Source: Phycisphaeraceae bacterium
GTDB lineage: Bacteria; Planctomycetota; Phycisphaerae; Phycisphaerales; UBA1924
NCBI GenBank assembly: GCA_019636675.1
Contig: JAHBXC010000002.1
Location: 186,001-250,000 of the forward strand
Length of the DNA stretch: 64,000 nucleotides
Reading direction: 5' to 3'
Shown here: positions 53,044 through 62,742 of the stretch, piece after piece
Layout: the number at the start of each line of letters is the position of its first letter
How positions within the stretch are numbered: position 1 is the first letter of the stretch
The notes under the pieces: generated by a model
Told to the model about the DNA's origin: nothing
What the model saw: the letters and a program-made list of their open reading frames with translations, nothing else
Databases searched by the model: none
Translations under genes and position numbers: made by a program

Positions 53044-53463
53044 GTCCGGCGAGCGGTGGAGGGGGGCGACTCCTCCCCTGCGACGATGGGCGGGGCGGGT
53101 CGTCGCTGGAGACGAGGCGGGTGGGCTTTTTTTTCGGCTTTTCTGCCCTGAATGAGAGGCCGCGGGTGGTTCTCGGAGGAAGGGGAGGAACCGGCCCCGA
53201 GGGGTGGCGTATCGGGTGGTGCGCACGCTGGCAGGATCGGCGAAACGCCGAGGGAGCGCGGGCGAGACAGGAGCGGGTCTGCTATGCTCTGTCGAGGGCA
53301 AATTCCTGTGAATGGCCCTGAGTTTGAAAGGGCGCGTGAGCGCCCGACGCATGAGGTGTCCGCACCCCCGGGCCGGGCCCGGTCTGAAGCCATACTTTGT
53401 CGCGGCCGCGCCGGGGCCGTGGGTCCGAATGTTCCAGCCCCAGACACGAGGGGATGATTGGTC
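53044..53463. other. 420-bp gap: phytase 3' region and long leader of the next gene
   Basis: No gene is seen. A T8 run at 53127-53134 preceded by a weak TCGTC/GACGA stem may end the phytase transcript. A TATGCT at 53283-53288 could be a -10 box, giving a leader of about 170 nt before ATG 53464; no convincing -35 is present. The leader has GC-rich self-complementary runs near 53365-53420 but nothing I can assign. Confidence 0.35.
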
Positions 53464-56046
53464 ATGAGAAGAACTGACATCGGAAGGTCGAGCGTCTCCA
53501 CGCGGTCCGCGGCATACGCCCTGACGGCGGTTGTTGGCGCGGCCATCGGCTTGTCGGCCCCAGCGGTCGCGGTCGGCGAAGGCACGGCGTACATCTGCGC
53601 GACCGGCGGTTCGGTCAACCCGTTCTGCCCCTGGTTCACCGGTCAGGGCCCCATCCTGAGCGCCGTACTCGGGCAGAACGCGCCCACCTCCGGCCGCAAC
53701 GCGGTGATCGGCATGATCTCGGGCTTCCTGCCCCCGGTCCGGTTCGAGGGCGAGGGCCTTTCGCAGGTCGATCACGTGGTCTTCCAGGAGGGCAACTCCG
53801 GGCGTTCACGCGTGCTGGTGGGCATCATCGCCGGCGCGTACTCGAACGGCCGCTCCAGCGGCGATCCGACGCAGCTCAACGGCGAGAACCGTCTCCAGGT
53901 CCAGGCGGGCGGCGTGCTCGCCACCGCGATGGGCGACGGCGACTTCAACCCGTTCAACCCGTTCGTTGACACCACCCAGGGCGTCGCCGGCGAGGCACGC
54001 GCCATCGTCGCCTCGGTCGCCGCTTCGCTGTCCGGCGCCGACAACAACCCGCAGTTCGAGACCGACCTCAACGGCTTCGCGCGGTCGATGCTCATCATGG
54101 CCGACCGGACCACGGCGCTGCGCTTCGCTTCGGCGTACCCCGACATCAACGGCGATGGCAGCCCCGACGTCGTGACGGCGGATGTCATCGTGCTCGACAT
54201 CGCGGAAGGCGGCGACCTCGCGGGCGAGGGCTTCCTCCCTCGCGTCGCTGACGGCATCGTCTTCGACTACGACGTCACGGTCATCGCCCCCACGGGCGAC
54301 GGCGCCGACGCGGTCGGCGTCCCCCAGCAGCAGCGCCAGACCTTCATCTTCAACCGCACGCTCTTTGCGCCCGCGTCGGGGTACAACGTCCTGGCCGTCG
54401 GTGCGCAGGATTTCCCCGCTGGCACGATGTCCATGGGCGGCAGCTGCCCCAAGGAATACCGCGCTCAGTGGTTCAAGTCCGGTCGCGGCACGCTGCGTGC
54501 GCGCAACTACGCGCAGTTCGACCCCAACGAGCCGACCGGGTTCCAGGAGATCCCGCAGGCGCGCTCCGGCGTCGGCGTCGTCGCTCCCGGCACCAAGCTG
54601 CGCATCCCCGACATCACCGCGTTTAACGCGTTCGTCCGCGACGAGAACATCTGCGACCTGCTGCCCGAGGGCGGCGGCGGCGGCGGTCCGGGCGGCGAAA
54701 CCCCCGACGACCTCGCCGAGAGCACCCGTTTCGCAACCGGCTATGTCGCCGGCGCGATCGCGCTCGTCCAGGACGCGTACAAGAAGCTCAACGCCGCCCA
54801 GCCGACCATGTTCCGCCTGCCGCGCATTCCGGCGGTCACCATGAGGGCGATGGTCATCAACTCCGCGTCCCGAGCGCGTGCCGACATCGCATGCTGGACG
54901 AACACGGGCGAGTTCTACGAGGGCAACCCCGACCGCGGCGCCCAGCCCTTCGGCACCTGCGACCCCTTCACCGCCGACTCGACGCAGCGCTCGCTCGACG
55001 CGTCGGTGGGCGGCGGGCTCCTCGACCTCGTCGCGCTCCACGAGAACTTCCAGGGCCGCGCCGCGGCCGAGGGCGTCCTCCAGCAGTTCGCCACGATGGA
55101 TGTGCCCACCACGGATCGGCGCATCCCCTACGTGCGCATCCCGCCCGGCCTCGGCCTCAATCGCGGCGGCGCCGGGTTCGGCGGCGGGCCCAGCGGCGGG
55201 CTCGGCGATAACGACAACAGCCTGCGCCCGCCTTTCCCGCCCCCGAACATCGGGCCCGGCGGCGAGATCCCGGCCGACTGGCCGATCCGTCAGATCATCC
55301 CTCGCGGGTTCCGTGACTTCGAGAACCCCAACACGGTGTTCATCCGCTCCGCGCTGCCCGTCGACTCGATCGGCTGGGACATCGCCCGACTCGGTCGCGG
55401 CTACGTCGACTATGTGATCACCACGCTCATCAACGCCGGCGACACCTTCTCGGCCACCCTCACCTGGAACCGCACGCAGCAGATCGACTGGCCGTTCGTC
55501 GCGCCGGGCTCGACCGAGGTCCTGCCCCCGAACATCCGCGACGCCGAGCTCCAGCTCGAGTACGAGGACATCAACCTCCTCCTGTTCTTCGCCGACTCGT
55601 CGGGCAACCCGTCGTTCCAGATCGGGCGCTCCGCGACCGAGTGGGACAACACCGAACTGATCTACTTCGATCAGTCCGTCGATCAGGGCCCCGGCGGCAT
55701 GCCCGTCACCGGTCGCTACCTGATGCGCGTGGAGTGGAACCAGCGCCGCTATGACCGCTTCCTCCGCCTCCCCGTCGCCGACACCGAGTTCGGTCTCGCC
55801 TGGCGAGCGATCACCATCGAGCAGCTGGCTCCCGGCGGCGGCCTCGCCTTCCAGAGCATCCCCGGCGATGTCAACCGCGACGGCGCCGTCGACCTCGCTG
55901 ACCTCAGCGCCGTCATCCAGAGCTTCGGCCAGATGGACTTCAACGCCGACGCCAACAGCGACGGCATCGTGAACATGGCCGACATCAACCTCGTGCTCGC
56001 CAACTTCGGGCGACGCGCCCCCGAGTCGCTCGCCTCCGCCGAGTAA
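53464..56046 (+). CDS. Exported subtilase-like protein lacking catalytic residues, with dockerin-like end
   Basis: This 860-residue protein has a long signal peptide (through AAIGLSAPAVA). Residues about 70-500 follow the order of an S8 subtilisin: VIGMISGFL at the catalytic-Asp strand, an AGGVLATAMGDG helix where the catalytic His would be, and STRFATGYVAGAIALVQDAY in place of GTSxAxPxVAGxxAL, where the Ser position is Arg422; then MRAMVINSASRA and GGGLLDLVAL. A Gly/Pro-rich linker, a beta-rich domain and two calcium loops (GDVNRDGAVDLADLS, ADANSDGIVNMADIN) follow. It is probably an inactive binding version. ATG 53464 is preferred to TTG 53458. Confidence 0.6.
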   Translation: MRRTDIGRSSVSTRSAAYALTAVVGAAIGLSAPAVAVGEGTAYICATGGSVNPFCPWFTGQGPILSAVLGQNAPTSGRNAVIGMISGFLPPVRFEGEGLSQVDHVVFQEGNSGRSRVLVGIIAGAYSNGRSSGDPTQLNGENRLQVQAGGVLATAMGDGDFNPFNPFVDTTQGVAGEARAIVASVAASLSGADNNPQFETDLNGFARSMLIMADRTTALRFASAYPDINGDGSPDVVTADVIVLDIAEGGDLAGEGFLPRVADGIVFDYDVTVIAPTGDGADAVGVPQQQRQTFIFNRTLFAPASGYNVLAVGAQDFPAGTMSMGGSCPKEYRAQWFKSGRGTLRARNYAQFDPNEPTGFQEIPQARSGVGVVAPGTKLRIPDITAFNAFVRDENICDLLPEGGGGGGPGGETPDDLAESTRFATGYVAGAIALVQDAYKKLNAAQPTMFRLPRIPAVTMRAMVINSASRARADIACWTNTGEFYEGNPDRGAQPFGTCDPFTADSTQRSLDASVGGGLLDLVALHENFQGRAAAEGVLQQFATMDVPTTDRRIPYVRIPPGLGLNRGGAGFGGGPSGGLGDNDNSLRPPFPPPNIGPGGEIPADWPIRQIIPRGFRDFENPNTVFIRSALPVDSIGWDIARLGRGYVDYVITTLINAGDTFSATLTWNRTQQIDWPFVAPGSTEVLPPNIRDAELQLEYEDINLLLFFADSSGNPSFQIGRSATEWDNTELIYFDQSVDQGPGGMPVTGRYLMRVEWNQRRYDRFLRLPVADTEFGLAWRAITIEQLAPGGGLAFQSIPGDVNRDGAVDLADLSAVIQSFGQMDFNADANSDGIVNMADINLVLANFGRRAPESLASAE

Positions 56047-57632: not shown

Positions 57633-57699
57633 GGGTCGGGATGGTAGGGGAACGCGGCACGAGTGTGCGACGCGCCGGGGCGTTGTGCGAGGGTGTGGA

Positions 57700-57740
57700 C
57701 AAAGAAAAAGACCGTGGTCGCCTGTGAGCGGCCACGGTCT
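57700..57740 (-). terminator. Rho-independent terminator upstream of serS
   Basis: On the minus strand AGACCGTGG (57740-57732) pairs with CCACGGTCT (57717-57709) and is followed by TTTTTCTTTG. It lies 68 bp before the serS start and directly behind the structured region, so it may end an RNA gene or act as an attenuator for serS. Confidence 0.75.
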
Positions 57741-58060
57741 CTGCCACACTCCGCCTTACGGCGTCGTGCGTTTTTCGGTGCGACCCTTTCACCGGGTGTC
57801 GGAAGCATTCCCCAACGCTGCCGACTGCGACATGTTTCTCTCGAACAGCGGGTCCTGCTGTCCGTTCCCTCAACTCCGGACAGTTGTCCGGGGTGTCCAG
57901 ACTCGGACGAATCCGAGAATGAACGCTGACGTGTCTCTCCCTCGCGTTTCCGCGAGGGCCTTCCTTGAGGACCGCACGCCGAGGCGGGCGGTTGCTTCCC
58001 TCTTGACCAACAAGGTAGCGTGTCCTCCCCCGCTCTGCAAGCCAAATCGTGGGGGAACCG
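57741..58060 (-). ncRNA. Candidate structured non-coding RNA or leader upstream of serS
   Basis: The region has no convincing protein gene and an unusual density of perfect stems. On the minus strand the order is: CCCTCGCG-GAAA-CGCGAGGG (57939-57958), CTCGGA-TTCG-TCCGAG (57902-57917), CCGGAC-AACT-GTCCGG (57876-57891), CGGACAGC-N7-GCTGTTCG (57842-57864), CGCC-GTAA-GGCG (57752-57763), then the terminator. Stable GNRA (GAAA, GTAA) and UUCG loops appear only when the minus strand is read, which fixes the orientation. I could not match it to RNase P, tmRNA, SRP, 6S RNA, T-box or a known riboswitch consensus. The 5' end is uncertain; 58061-58164 shows nothing clear. Confidence 0.5.
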
Positions 58061-58164
58061 ATGAACTTTCTGTATCTTTTCCCGCTCGGAGAGGGGGGGA
58101 GGCGCGATTTCTGCGTTTTTGCCCGGAGGCAAGATTGCCTATCTTCACGCCCGGGGCCGTCTGG

Positions 58165-59040
58165 CTATCGCTCGCCCGGGGCGACCGCCCAGTGCATCTT
58201 GCGGATCAGGGTCTGCCAGTAGTTGGCCCGGCGGTTGGTCACGACGCGTAAGGGCTTGGGGTGTATCTGGATGCGCACCCGGTCCCCTTCGCGCAGGGGG
58301 GCCATCCGCTGCCCGTCGAGGACGAGGGTCGTCCCGGCGCCGTGGTTGAATTCGTGGTGGTTGGCTCTGCGGACCGTGATGCGGATCTCGGCGTCCTGGG
58401 GCACGACGATCGAGCGGAACGAGAGCGAGTGGGCCGCGACAGGGGTCACCACCAGGCAGGGGGTCGTCGGGGCGAGGATCGGACCCCCGGCGGCGATGTT
58501 GTACGCCGTCGACCCGGTGGGGGTGGCCACGATCACGCCGTCGCCCTGGAGGAGCGGGCCGGGCTGGCCGTCGATCGAGAGGTCGAGGGCGATCATGCGA
58601 AAGGGCGGGCCGGCGGCGATGCTGCACTCGTTGAGCGCCAGGCCGAGGTCTTCGGGCGGTCCTCCGGCGCGCTCGATGGTTGCGCCGAGAAGGACCGCGT
58701 CGCGCGTCGGGAGCGGCGCGCCGGGATTGAACAGCGTGGGCGCCTGCTGCACGAGCGCCGCGGGCTCGAACTCCGCGAGGAAGCCGACTTTCCCGAAGTT
58801 CACGCCCAAAAGGGGAACGGCACGCTCGGCGAGAGAGCGGGCGGCGGCGAGGATCGTCCCGTCACCCCCGAGCACGACCGCGAGGTCGGCCTTGAGCGAC
58901 TCGTCGGGGCAGGCGTTGGCCTCGCACTCGCCCACGAGATCGGCGTGCGACGCGAGGAGCGCGCGGATCGTGGGGAGGGCCTCCCGCGCGTCGGGCTTGT
59001 CGGTGTTGACCAGGAGGACGACGCGTCGACGATCGCTCAT
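58165..59040 (-). CDS. nadK: NAD kinase
   Basis: This 291-residue cytoplasmic enzyme phosphorylates NAD to NADP. Motifs are VVLGGDGTILAAARSL (GGDG catalytic loop, Asp general base), LGVNFGKVGFLAEF, LALNECSIAAGPP (NE/D motif), GDGVIVATPTGSTAYNIAAGGPILAPTTPCLVVTPV (the Gly/Thr-rich signature) and TLVLDGQRMAPL. ATG 59040 gives a start like other family members; ATG 59061 in frame would add seven residues. It follows dxs after 33 bp on the same strand and is probably in one operon with dxs and ispA. Confidence 0.93.
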   Translation of the reverse strand: MSDRRRVVLLVNTDKPDAREALPTIRALLASHADLVGECEANACPDESLKADLAVVLGGDGTILAAARSLAERAVPLLGVNFGKVGFLAEFEPAALVQQAPTLFNPGAPLPTRDAVLLGATIERAGGPPEDLGLALNECSIAAGPPFRMIALDLSIDGQPGPLLQGDGVIVATPTGSTAYNIAAGGPILAPTTPCLVVTPVAAHSLSFRSIVVPQDAEIRITVRRANHHEFNHGAGTTLVLDGQRMAPLREGDRVRIQIHPKPLRVVTNRRANYWQTLIRKMHWAVAPGER

Positions 59041-59073
59041 GCGCGCATGGTAGTCGATCATCGCGACGCGGCG

Positions 59074-61140
59074 TCAGCCGGCGGCGGGGCTGCGCCTGGG
59101 CGTCGGAGACGCCGGGGACTCTTCCCGCTTCGGGCGATCGAGCAGCAGCCCTCGCACGCGCTGCGCGATGCCGGCGGCGTCGAGCCCCGTCTCCGCCAGT
59201 TGCGAGGAGCGGCTGTTCTGGTAGATCCAGTGGTCGGGGATGCCCAGCGTGCGCACGCGCGACGCGTTGAGGCCCATCTCGGACGCGGCCTCGAGGACCG
59301 CCGTCCCGAACCCGCCCACGACGCTGTGGTCCTCGACCGTCAGGATCGGGATGTCGCGCGTCAGCAGGTCGCGGATCAGCTCACGGTCGACCGGCTTGGC
59401 GAAGCGCGCGTCGTAGACGCTCACGCGGATGTCGGGGGCCAGCTGCGTCGCGGCCTCGACCGACGCGATCGCCGGCGAGCCGAACGCGAGGATCGCGGCG
59501 TCGGGGCGCTCGACCTCTCGCAGCGCGCGGGCCTTGCCCACGACGAACGCCGGGCAGGGCTCGCTTGCGAACAGCGCCGACACGTTGTCGCGCGGGTAAC
59601 GCACGGCGCTCAGACCGGTCTCCCAGGTGCGCATGAACTCGAGGGCCGCCAGGAGCGAGGGCTCGTCGATCGCGGCGGTGACGACCGCGCCTGGCAGGGT
59701 GCGCAGGATCGCGACATCGCAGAAGCCGTGGTGGACCGCGCCGTCGCCGCCAACCAGCCCGGCGCGATCGAGGCACAGACGCACGGGAAGCCCCTGCAGC
59801 GCGACTTCCTGGAAGGCCTGGTCGAACGCGCGCTGGAGGAACGTGCAGTACACGGCGAAGAAGGGCTTGAGCCCGGTCTTCGCCAGCCCCGCCATCATGT
59901 CCATCGCGTGGCTCTCGCAGATGCCCGTGTCCCAGGTGCGATCCGGGAACGCCTTGAGCACCTTGGAAACACCCGTCCCGTCGGGCATCGCGGCGGTGGC
60001 GGCGACGACCTTCGCGTCGCGCTCCATCATCCCCAGCAGCGCGTCGCCGAACGCGCTCGTGAACGAACGCCCGGACTTCTTCAGCTCGACGCGGCAACCG
60101 GTGTTGACCAGCTCGCGCGTCGCGGCGGCGCTGGCGGCGTCGCTCGAGGTGACGTCCGGGTCGGTTTTCACGCTGAAGGCGCTGGGCGAGTGGAACGTGG
60201 TCGCGTCCTGCTCGGCGTAGTGGATGCCCTTGCCCTTGACGGTCTTGACGTGGAGCACCATCGGGCGATCGAAGTCGCGCGCCTCGGCGAGGAACTCGAT
60301 GAGCGAGGGCAGGTCGTGCCCGTCGACCGGGCCGATGTGCATCAGCCCGAAGTGCTCGAACCAGTTCACCTCGCGCCCGGACGCCGGGCCGTCGTGCTGC
60401 TCGCGCGCGACCAGCCACGCCTTGGTGGCCTCGCCGAAGCGGTGGTACGCGTCTTCGACCAGCTTGCCGCCGGGCACGCGGTTGAGCACCTTGCGCGCCT
60501 GGCGCTTGAAATCAGAGTACAGCGGGTTGATGCGCAGCCGGTCGAAGTACTGCGCCATCGCGCCCTGCGGGTGGCTGATGGACATCCCGTTGTCGTTGAG
60601 GACGACGAGGAACTGTCGCGCCAGCGTTCCGGCGTTGTTCAGGCCTTCGAGCGCGACGCCGTTGACGATCGACGCGTCGCCCACGAAGCAGACCACGCGA
60701 CGACCCTTCGGGTTGTGCTGGGGGTCAAACGCTTCGCTGTTGAGCGAGTCGCCCCGGGCCATGCCCACGCCCGTGCTGATCGCGGTGCCGGCGTGCCCGA
60801 CCGAGAAGAGGTCGTACGACGACTCGCGCGGGTCGGGGAAGCCCGACATGCCGGCGCTGGTGCGCAGGCCCCCGAGCAGGTCGGCGCGCCCGGTCAGCAG
60901 CTTGTGCGGATAGCACTGGTGCCCGACATCGAAGAGCAGGCGGTCGTGCGCGAAGTCGAAGACATAGTGCAGCGCGATCGTCAGCTCGACGACGCCGAGG
61001 TTCGGGGCGAGGTGCCCGCCCGTCTTCGAGACCTGATCCACGATGCGCGCGCGGATCTCGGCCGCGAGGGTCGGGAGCTGGTCGATCGGCAGGCGCTTCA
61101 GGTCGGCAGGCGAGCGGATCGTGTCGAGCAGGTTGGTCAT
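59074..61140 (-). CDS. dxs: 1-deoxy-D-xylulose-5-phosphate synthase
   Basis: This 688-residue thiamine diphosphate enzyme makes the first intermediate of the MEP isoprenoid pathway from pyruvate and glyceraldehyde 3-phosphate. Seen are GGHLAPNLGVVELTIALHYVF, LFDVGHQCYPHKLLTG, SVGHAGTAIS, the ThDP-binding VVCFVGDASIVNGVALEGLNN (GDAS variant of GDGA) with LNDNGMSIS, HVKTVKGKGIHYAE, and the transketolase C-terminal domain (VRLCLDRAGLVGGDGAVHHG). ATG 61140 is used; ATG 61161 would add seven residues. The next gene upstream, a polyprenyl synthase, fits the same pathway. Confidence 0.94.
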   Translation of the reverse strand: MTNLLDTIRSPADLKRLPIDQLPTLAAEIRARIVDQVSKTGGHLAPNLGVVELTIALHYVFDFAHDRLLFDVGHQCYPHKLLTGRADLLGGLRTSAGMSGFPDPRESSYDLFSVGHAGTAISTGVGMARGDSLNSEAFDPQHNPKGRRVVCFVGDASIVNGVALEGLNNAGTLARQFLVVLNDNGMSISHPQGAMAQYFDRLRINPLYSDFKRQARKVLNRVPGGKLVEDAYHRFGEATKAWLVAREQHDGPASGREVNWFEHFGLMHIGPVDGHDLPSLIEFLAEARDFDRPMVLHVKTVKGKGIHYAEQDATTFHSPSAFSVKTDPDVTSSDAASAAATRELVNTGCRVELKKSGRSFTSAFGDALLGMMERDAKVVAATAAMPDGTGVSKVLKAFPDRTWDTGICESHAMDMMAGLAKTGLKPFFAVYCTFLQRAFDQAFQEVALQGLPVRLCLDRAGLVGGDGAVHHGFCDVAILRTLPGAVVTAAIDEPSLLAALEFMRTWETGLSAVRYPRDNVSALFASEPCPAFVVGKARALREVERPDAAILAFGSPAIASVEAATQLAPDIRVSVYDARFAKPVDRELIRDLLTRDIPILTVEDHSVVGGFGTAVLEAASEMGLNASRVRTLGIPDHWIYQNSRSSQLAETGLDAAGIAQRVRGLLLDRPKREESPASPTPRRSPAAG

Positions 61141-61201
61141 CGCGTCGGCCTGGCCTTCCATCGGGGGGGCGATACCTCACAGGAGTGTAGGGAATCGGCC
61201 C

Positions 61202-62125
61202 TCACGATGTTCGCACGGCAAGGAAATCGCAGATTCGCCCCAGCTCCGTCGCACGCTCCCCGAAAGGCGCCAGCGCCGAGGTCGCCAGGGCGTGCAGGCG
61301 CTCGACCTCGGCCCGGGAACCCTCGATCCCCAGCACCCCGGGAAAGGTGGTCTTGCCCGCCGCCGCGTCCTTGCCCGTCCGCTTGCCCGTATTCTCGGGC
61401 GTCTGCTCGACGTCGAGCAGGTCGTCGACGATCTGGAACATCAGCCCGACAGCCGAGCCATAGGTCGTCAGCGCTTCGAGAGCGTCCTCTGGCGAGCCAG
61501 ACCGTCGGCCCGTCTCTGCAGGAGAAACCGCCCGGAGCCCCATCATGGCGCCCATGCGGCAGGACGCGAGGATCAGTGCCCCGGTTTTGCAGCGGTGGAT
61601 CAGCGAGACCCGCTCCTGTGCGCTCAAGCCCTCGGGCAAGCCGCCCAGCGTGTCGTACACCTGCCCGACGATCATCGCGCCCGACGCGTCGGCGAGCTCG
61701 CGAGTCAGAAGGCCCGCCAGCGCCGGGTCGATCCCCTCGGTCGTCAGGGCCCGGAACGCGAGCACCGTCATCGCGTCGCCCGCGAGGATCGCCATCGCCT
61801 CGCTGGTCGCCTTGTGCAGGGTTGGGCGCCCCCGGCGCAGGTCGTCGTCGTCCATCGCCGGCAGGTCGTCGTGCACGAGCGAGAACGCGTGGATCAGCTC
61901 GACCGCCGCCGCCGCTGGCAGTGCGGCCTCGCGAGGGGCACCGACGGCGGCGCAGCACTCCAGCGCCAGGCAGGGGCGCAGGCGCTTGCCGCCACCGAGC
62001 AGCGCGTAGCGGATCGCCTCGCGCAGGGATTCCGCGAGTTCGATCGACGAAAGGAAGCGGTCGAGGCGCCCGTCCACGAGCGCGGCGGCGCGCGAGAGCG
62101 ACTCGGGCGTGGTCGGCTGGGTCAT
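61202..62125 (-). CDS. ispA: Polyprenyl (farnesyl/geranylgeranyl) diphosphate synthase
   Basis: This 307-residue enzyme condenses isopentenyl diphosphate units. It has GGGKRLRPCLALECC, the first aspartate-rich motif HDDLPAMDDDDLRRGRPTLHK (with the two extra residues of the short-chain bacterial type), and the second motif VGLMFQIVDDLLDVE, plus TTFPGVLG (KxTYPxLxG element). The form of the first motif suggests a C15-C20 product. It lies 61 bp from dxs on the same strand and shares the pathway, so it is probably cotranscribed. Confidence 0.9.
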   Translation of the reverse strand: MTQPTTPESLSRAAALVDGRLDRFLSSIELAESLREAIRYALLGGGKRLRPCLALECCAAVGAPREAALPAAAAVELIHAFSLVHDDLPAMDDDDLRRGRPTLHKATSEAMAILAGDAMTVLAFRALTTEGIDPALAGLLTRELADASGAMIVGQVYDTLGGLPEGLSAQERVSLIHRCKTGALILASCRMGAMMGLRAVSPAETGRRSGSPEDALEALTTYGSAVGLMFQIVDDLLDVEQTPENTGKRTGKDAAAGKTTFPGVLGIEGSRAEVERLHALATSALAPFGERATELGRICDFLAVRTS

Positions 62126-62187
62126 CGCGGGGGTCGTGGTGGAGGGCGGGTTCACGACGGGAGTGTACCTGTGCGCGCCGGGCGCCC

Positions 62188-62652
62188 TCAGGACGCGACG
62201 TGCTCGCGCGACGCCAGCATCGAGTACATCTCGTCGGCGCTCATCGCGTTGTAGAGCTGTTCGCGGAACTCGGCGTCGGCCATGAGGCGACTGATCTTGG
62301 CCAGCGCCTGGATGTGGTCGCTGGTCTTGTCCGGGGGGCTCGCGAGCAGGACGATGAGGCGGACCGGCTTCTGGTCGATCGCGGCGAACTCGAGAGGGTT
62401 CGCCGGCTTGCCGATCGCCATCGCGAGCCCGGCGACCGAGGCGCACTTGCCGTGGGGGATCGCCAGCCCGTGCCCGATCCCGGTGGTGCGAGTCTGCTCG
62501 CGGGTCCAGACCGCCTGCTTGAGCGACTCGGCGTCCAGCACGCGACCGGACTGGGCGAGCGCGTCGACCAGCTCGAAGATCGCGCCCTTCTTATCGAGGG
62601 CGACGAGCGGGACTTTGACGCAGGTCGGCTTGAGGATCTCGGTCAGATTCAT
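62188..62652 (-). CDS. PTS EIIA (fructose/nitrogen type) domain protein
   Basis: This 154-residue single-domain protein has the EIIA fold of the fructose/mannitol and PtsN type: MNLTEILKPTCVKVPL, REQTRTTGIGHGLAIPHGKC with the phosphorylated His in IPHGK, and VRLIVLLASPPDKTSDHIQALAKISRLM. No EIIB/EIIC partners are in the window, so a regulatory (PtsN-like) role is likelier than sugar transport. It sits between ispA and rsmB on the same strand. An upstream in-frame ATG at 62682 is possible but less like family starts. Confidence 0.88.
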   Translation of the reverse strand: MNLTEILKPTCVKVPLVALDKKGAIFELVDALAQSGRVLDAESLKQAVWTREQTRTTGIGHGLAIPHGKCASVAGLAMAIGKPANPLEFAAIDQKPVRLIVLLASPPDKTSDHIQALAKISRLMADAEFREQLYNAMSADEMYSMLASREHVAS

Positions 62653-62742
62653 CGCGGAAACCACACGAGTTTGGTGAAGCACGGGCTCTGGAGACGAAGC
62701 CGACCGGGTGACTCAAGAGTGTAGCCGTCGCGTGGGGCCCGG

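Follow-up and report, generated by a model that had tools for sequence, protein, structure and literature searches.

What, if anything, is encoded in the gap that separates nadK from serS on the minus strand of a 64,000-nt stretch of a Phycisphaeraceae contig (hereafter, the window)? Gene order on this strand is nadK (59061-58165), the gap, and serS (57632-56220). A first-pass annotation of the letters placed an orphan structured RNA at 57700-58060, described as five stem-loops followed by an intrinsic terminator. All these elements were recovered at that place, but the hairpins amount to at least eight rather than five, and the RNA proper extends from ∼58011 to 57701 (minus strand, ∼310 nt), with the remaining segment at 58040-58012 corresponding to a promoter-like region. 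The 5′ end of this RNA was deduced from the alignment and the promoter position, and the 3′ end is that of the terminator; lengths among relatives range roughly from 240 to 325 nt. No dinucleotide shuffle matched the minus-strand fold in stability (z = −5.65 for 57690-58070; z = −5.11 for 57701-58011), in agreement with the claim of a hairpin density beyond chance. The GAAA, UUCG, and GUAA loops reported for this strand are indeed those of hairpins P2, P3, and P8, respectively, and the tetraloop argument in favor of the minus strand was correct; the same loop positions hold GAAA, UUCG, GCAA, or CUUG in relatives. In terms of fold energy, however, the proposed strand asymmetry is modest, since the plus strand also scored above chance (z = −3.91 and z = −4.03 for the same two intervals). 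The claim of an RNA gene relies on comparative evidence. Scanning the window with ARAGORN identified neither tRNA nor tmRNA, and Rfam 15 returned nothing above the gathering threshold and solely chance-level matches at a permissive threshold. The best subthreshold Rfam matches in four homologous loci were equally at chance level, as expected from the initial impression that the RNA belongs to no known family.

A search with NadK led to relatives at ∼50% protein identity, four of which (L005, L006, L007, and L009) have sequences downstream of nadK that align with the window RNA. A covariance model of the 3′ domain built from five sequences (R1) detected one copy each in 20 of the 163 genomes of a Phycisphaerales family (the window genome and 19 others), representing 19 genera, with E values from 3e-19 to 3e-6. 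When the rebuilt model (R2) was run on 400 genomes of the order, the same 20 came back, and 397 genomes of the class contributed no further credible copy, with only the top candidates per genome being scored in these large searches. Two class-level matches (G206 and G554; E values of 0.005 to 0.007) were discarded because they lack the motifs, one being a coding-like sequence and the other a bare terminator. A third model (R3), restricted to the 5′ domain and built without the window sequence, recognized the RNA as its sole match in the window's genome (22.3 bits; E = 0.007). It also recovered relatives that had been held out, the two highest scores being 50 and 36 bits, and added no credible genome to the 20. 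Weak R3 matches in G156 (at a second place), G126, and G051 were attributed to coding-like sequence or chance. A BLAST hit in G013 (L003), identical over 24 nt, was likewise ascribed to chance, as it sits within a protein gene in a different context. Phage and plasmid collections yielded no match to the RNA. Rows with the RNA group together on the NadK tree (3 changes versus 14.4 upon shuffling), a pattern that would fit a single gain and two losses but does not prove them. By these searches, the RNA family appears so far confined to a single Phycisphaerales family.

The alignments and folds delineate a chain of hairpins joined by conserved linkers, all on the minus strand and described here from 5′ to 3′. 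The RNA starts with a conserved element, GUUGGUCAAGAGGGAAGC (58011-57994; family consensus GUUGGUARGAGUGGAAGC), supported by alignments A2 and A6 and by the independent 5′ model, and continues with hairpin P1 (57991-57972). P2 (57958-57939) carries the GAAA loop and is preceded on its 5′ side by AAGGAAGG (GGAGGGAAG in the family) and followed by a first ACACGUC element (GACACGUCAGC; 57935-57925). P3 (57917-57902), with its UUCG loop, was assigned from the fold, and P4 (57891-57876) is missing or fused in some relatives. Next come P5 (57864-57842), with GAGGGAA on its 5′ side, and a second ACACGUC element, which reads GAAACAUGUCGC in the window (57838-57827). P6 (57825-57798) is variable and missing in some relatives, and P7 (57794-57776) precedes P8 (57770-57745), a CGCAC...GUGUG stem closed by the GUAA loop, which covaries in alignment A5. 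The motif GUGUGGCAGA (57749-57740), located 5′ of the terminator, is identical in all 20 loci. The terminator hairpin and its U tract (57739-57701) complete the molecule; this hairpin, followed by UUUUUCUUU, corresponds to helix 3 of A5, which is 97.3% paired and in which 9 of 11 pairs show two-sided changes.

Covariation of the stems among relatives, set beforehand as the test of the first-pass proposal, was strong. In the 20 sequences of the 3′ domain, which comprises P7, P8, and the terminator, standard pairs account for 94.9% of the alignment cells, and 16 of the 24 pairs exhibit changes on both sides. The covariation score of this domain was 0.463. Shuffled alignments gave 0.171, none of 500 reaching the observed score, and sliding the pairing partners gave no more than 0.117. 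The exact level of the score leans upward because the alignment was fitted to the structure. RNAalifold reported only two pairs in the 5′ alignment, and the 5′ stems were therefore assessed by arm permutation. When the 3′ arms were swapped between genomes, P1, P2, P5, and P6 paired far better with their own arms (0 of 5,000 permutations in each case), in a test that is free of the 3′-domain alignment but in which the choice of hairpins by best pairing per segment somewhat favors own arms. There is also, as judged from sequence comparison, a covarying kissing interaction between the loops of P5 and P7, which had been missed in the first reading. In the window, the P5 loop GACCC faces GGGUC in P7, and the two loops are complementary over 5 to 7 bases in all 20 genomes through 15 distinct pairings, e.g., GGGUCG/CGACCC (L048), GGGGCC/GGCCCC (L047), UGGUC/GACCA (L061), and CGGGCGA/UCGCCCG (L066). 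The mean Watson-Crick run is 5.37 nt, versus 3.62 nt with permuted partners (0 of 20,000 permutations); loop boundaries came from a best-hairpin search blind to loop-loop pairing, except in L049, where one was set by hand. Two other long-range pairings were abandoned. An H-type pseudoknot (GGGGG...CCCCC) around P7 was dropped because the full set of 20 sequences, window included, shows the P7 loop pairing with that of P5. A closing helix between the 5′ GUUGG and a CAAC before P8, which folding of individual sequences had suggested for some relatives, lacks conservation. As a separate observation, two species of one genus (L055 and L057, from G125 and G007) have a rearranged 5′ half in the P1-P2 region while keeping P5, P7, the kissing loops, and the 3′ domain.

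These patterns bear directly on whether there is an RNA gene at all. Long open frames do cross the region on both strands, which could be taken to favor protein-coding sequence or chance hairpins in a GC-rich spacer. Yet the compensatory changes refute such an explanation, whose probability is practically negligible: both the covariation and the kissing tests contradict it, and the length of the locus varies freely, with insertions and deletions falling in the hairpins. We are thus highly confident that this is a real structured RNA gene, and near-certain that the minus-strand locus is a single-copy gene of an independent structured RNA that encodes no protein. A divergent housekeeping RNA (RNase P RNA, tmRNA, SRP RNA, or 6S RNA) is a very improbable identity for it. 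The length is near that of tmRNA and RNase P RNA, and the 6S model RF00013 had no match in the whole genome, RNA locus included, although it also misses many control genomes. However, RNase P RNA (197 bits), tmRNA (147 bits), and SRP RNA (52 bits) were located elsewhere in the genome, the RNA is not found in most of the family, and its multihairpin architecture differs from the single long rod of 6S RNA.

Is this RNA a transcript of its own or the leader of serS? Directly upstream of the 5′ end lies the promoter-like region TTGCAG-N17-TACCTT (58040-58012, minus strand), and a comparable weak sigma-70-like box (a T[T/G]G-type −35 element, a 16- to 18-nt spacer, and TANNNT) occurs a few bases 5′ of the conserved 5′ end in nearly all 20 copies. 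A strict terminator/promoter scanner called neither signal at the RNA locus, presumably owing to a mismatch in the terminator stem and to the weak −35 box. We infer that the RNA is transcribed, probably from its own promoter just 3′ of nadK and down to its own terminator. The arrangement of promoter, RNA, terminator, and gene would also suit a long 5′ leader of serS, in which a structured sensor of tRNA-Ser or another signal would control a conditional terminator in a T-box-like manner. nadK lies upstream of 17 of the 20 copies, and serS is the next gene downstream, on the same strand, in 15. The conserved UGGCA 5′ of the terminator may also be counted for this option, as we take it to resemble the UGGN of T-boxes and to be suited to the tRNA-Ser 3′ end. 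In L049, L053, L056, L062, and L065, however, the RNA is intact and the next gene is not serS; by inspection of their sequences, the genes found instead include Sir2-like, ArsR-type/methyltransferase, and protein kinase genes, and in L062 and L065 the gene after the RNA is convergent. The RNA is therefore not an obligatory serS leader. Moreover, whereas T-box leaders share with these loci the order of promoter, structured RNA, terminator, and aminoacyl-tRNA synthetase gene (in the 15 genomes) as well as a UGGC before the terminator, neither the window nor the four homologous loci gave an Rfam T-box match, and inspection disclosed no stem I, specifier, or conserved antiterminator, the terminator stem being among the best-conserved helices. 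Altogether, a dedicated serS leader is quite unlikely. The first-pass annotation had offered both choices, and the comparison favors the independent noncoding RNA, given the conserved promoter-like box and terminator and the five genomes without serS downstream, so that any leader function would be no more than an additional role in genomes with serS downstream. The RNA probably acts in trans. Downstream of nadK in 30 genomes of the family that lack the RNA (L073 to L102), we found other, varied genes and neither serS nor the motif set. Most genomes that carry the RNA maintain the order nadK-RNA-serS, whereas many different genes adjoin nadK downstream in RNA-less ones. One of the latter, L101 (G020:C1:74980-75936), has its nadK-like match broken into two segments with a single in-frame TAA, which may reflect a frameshift or an error of assembly.

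What an RNA of this design might do in trans is best approached through its conserved single-stranded parts. Both P2 and P5 have GGGA immediately 5′ of the hairpin and ACACGUC 3′ of it, so that the same module is present twice; its single-stranded parts are nearly constant, while the hairpins that they enclose vary freely. Exact matches to ACACGUC number 29 across 19 RNAs, where shuffles predict 0.3, and AGGGA is present 34 times versus 11 expected (z = 7). GGA alone is mildly enriched (181 versus 148 expected; z = 3.9), with 7 to 13 occurrences per RNA. The conserved GGA sites fall in the linkers between hairpins, the loops being of the GNRA, UNCG, or CUUG type or engaged in kissing. We infer, with moderate confidence, a stand-alone trans-acting RNA whose kissing-loop fold displays the twin GGGA/ACACGUC modules to a protein partner. 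The P5-P7 contact closes the molecule into a compact fold, and a trans-acting partner, most probably one protein occupying both modules, would recognize the conserved single-stranded parts. The RNA may thereby serve as a scaffold or as a titrating sponge, comparable to CsrB and RsmZ for CsrA. CsrA itself is a candidate partner, as it is encoded in nearly all genomes tested and ARGGA-type sites are enriched in the RNA.

CsrA titration is accordingly possible on the present analysis, but a strict sponge of the CsrB/RsmZ type, i.e., a special case of the scaffold or sponge function, is unlikely. The host has CsrA, AGGGA is enriched with the z score of 7 given above, and GGA sites do lie in the interhairpin linkers. 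However, a site is found in three to four linkers only, and the conserved GGA lies outside the hairpin loops; CsrA, detected in 39 of the 40 genomes tested, is equally common in relatives without the RNA, and many relatives have the protein but not its presumed sponge; and neither a kissing loop nor ACACGUC defines CsrB-type RNAs. The proteobacterial CsrB, CsrC, and RsmZ are likewise stand-alone sRNAs of similar size, in which hairpins follow one another, single-stranded GGA-type sites recur, and a dedicated promoter and terminator delimit the gene. In contrast to them, the strongest element here is ACACGUC, the sites are in linkers rather than in loops, and a covarying kissing loop is present, CsrA binding being putative; the corresponding Rfam models matched at chance level only (CsrC, 16.1 bits in L005 versus a gathering score of 279). 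The window genome has three CsrA-family matches (G000:C1:813286-813441, G000:C2:685252-685422, and G000:C1:981437-981589), and most relatives tested have two.

CsrA does not explain the near-invariant ACACGUC, which may act as a seed for base pairing or contribute to a tertiary motif within the RNA. As the most enriched single-stranded element, present in two copies between hairpins, it invites the idea of a base-pairing sRNA that would recognize GACGUGU in target mRNAs in trans. This reading is doubtful, since every ACACGUC has a GGGA as its counterpart across the hairpin, as would be expected of a structural module. A further, tentative proposal is a new class of stand-alone bacterial RNA, in which an intra- or intermolecular kissing loop and the twin GGGA-hairpin-ACACGUC modules would assemble a ribonucleoprotein or RNA oligomer with a new protein partner and a function specific to one Phycisphaerales lineage. 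The ornate large bacterial RNAs GOLLD, ROOL, and OLE form homo-oligomeric complexes, according to PMC12286853. They resemble the present family as orphan structured bacterial RNAs found by comparison, but the RNA has no Rfam match to them, and here the kissing partners lie within one molecule, although intermolecular pairing is possible.

Whichever partner it has, the RNA appears to define a new family. It is absent from the catalogued Rfam families, and our literature search, with the 2017 list of 224 candidate RNAs standing outside the comparison, found no description of such an RNA; queries combining Phycisphaerae or Phycisphaerales with RNA motifs likewise retrieved nothing. A further comparison concerns the Rhodopirellula-1 motif, tabulated as a likely cis-regulatory candidate of Proteobacteria and Planctomycetes with no Rfam accession in that table (Weinberg 2010, PMC2864571), so that the negative Rfam result does not cover it. 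As far as that entry goes, the present RNA is set apart by description only, i.e., by its occurrence in one Phycisphaerales family and by a genomic context of the trans type rather than cis-regulatory. The broad kind, a stand-alone structured bacterial RNA, is familiar, and the newness lies at the family level. Structured RNAs of planctomycetes are scarcely charted, and the comparative proof is unusually complete in that it includes a tertiary kissing contact, with its 15 distinct loop-loop pairings, which makes the fold directly testable by mutation and chemical probing.

Two further features of the window lie on the plus strand. A 1,487-codon open reading frame (58261-62724) runs antisense to nadK and to a dxs-like gene and is probably a by-product of the high GC content. 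On the far side of serS, 53458-56046 encodes a large protein with a signal-like N terminus and a C-terminal GDVNRDGAVDLADLSAVIQSFG...NADANSDGIVNMADINLVLANFG repeat that, from the translation alone, resembles a dockerin-type calcium-binding domain.
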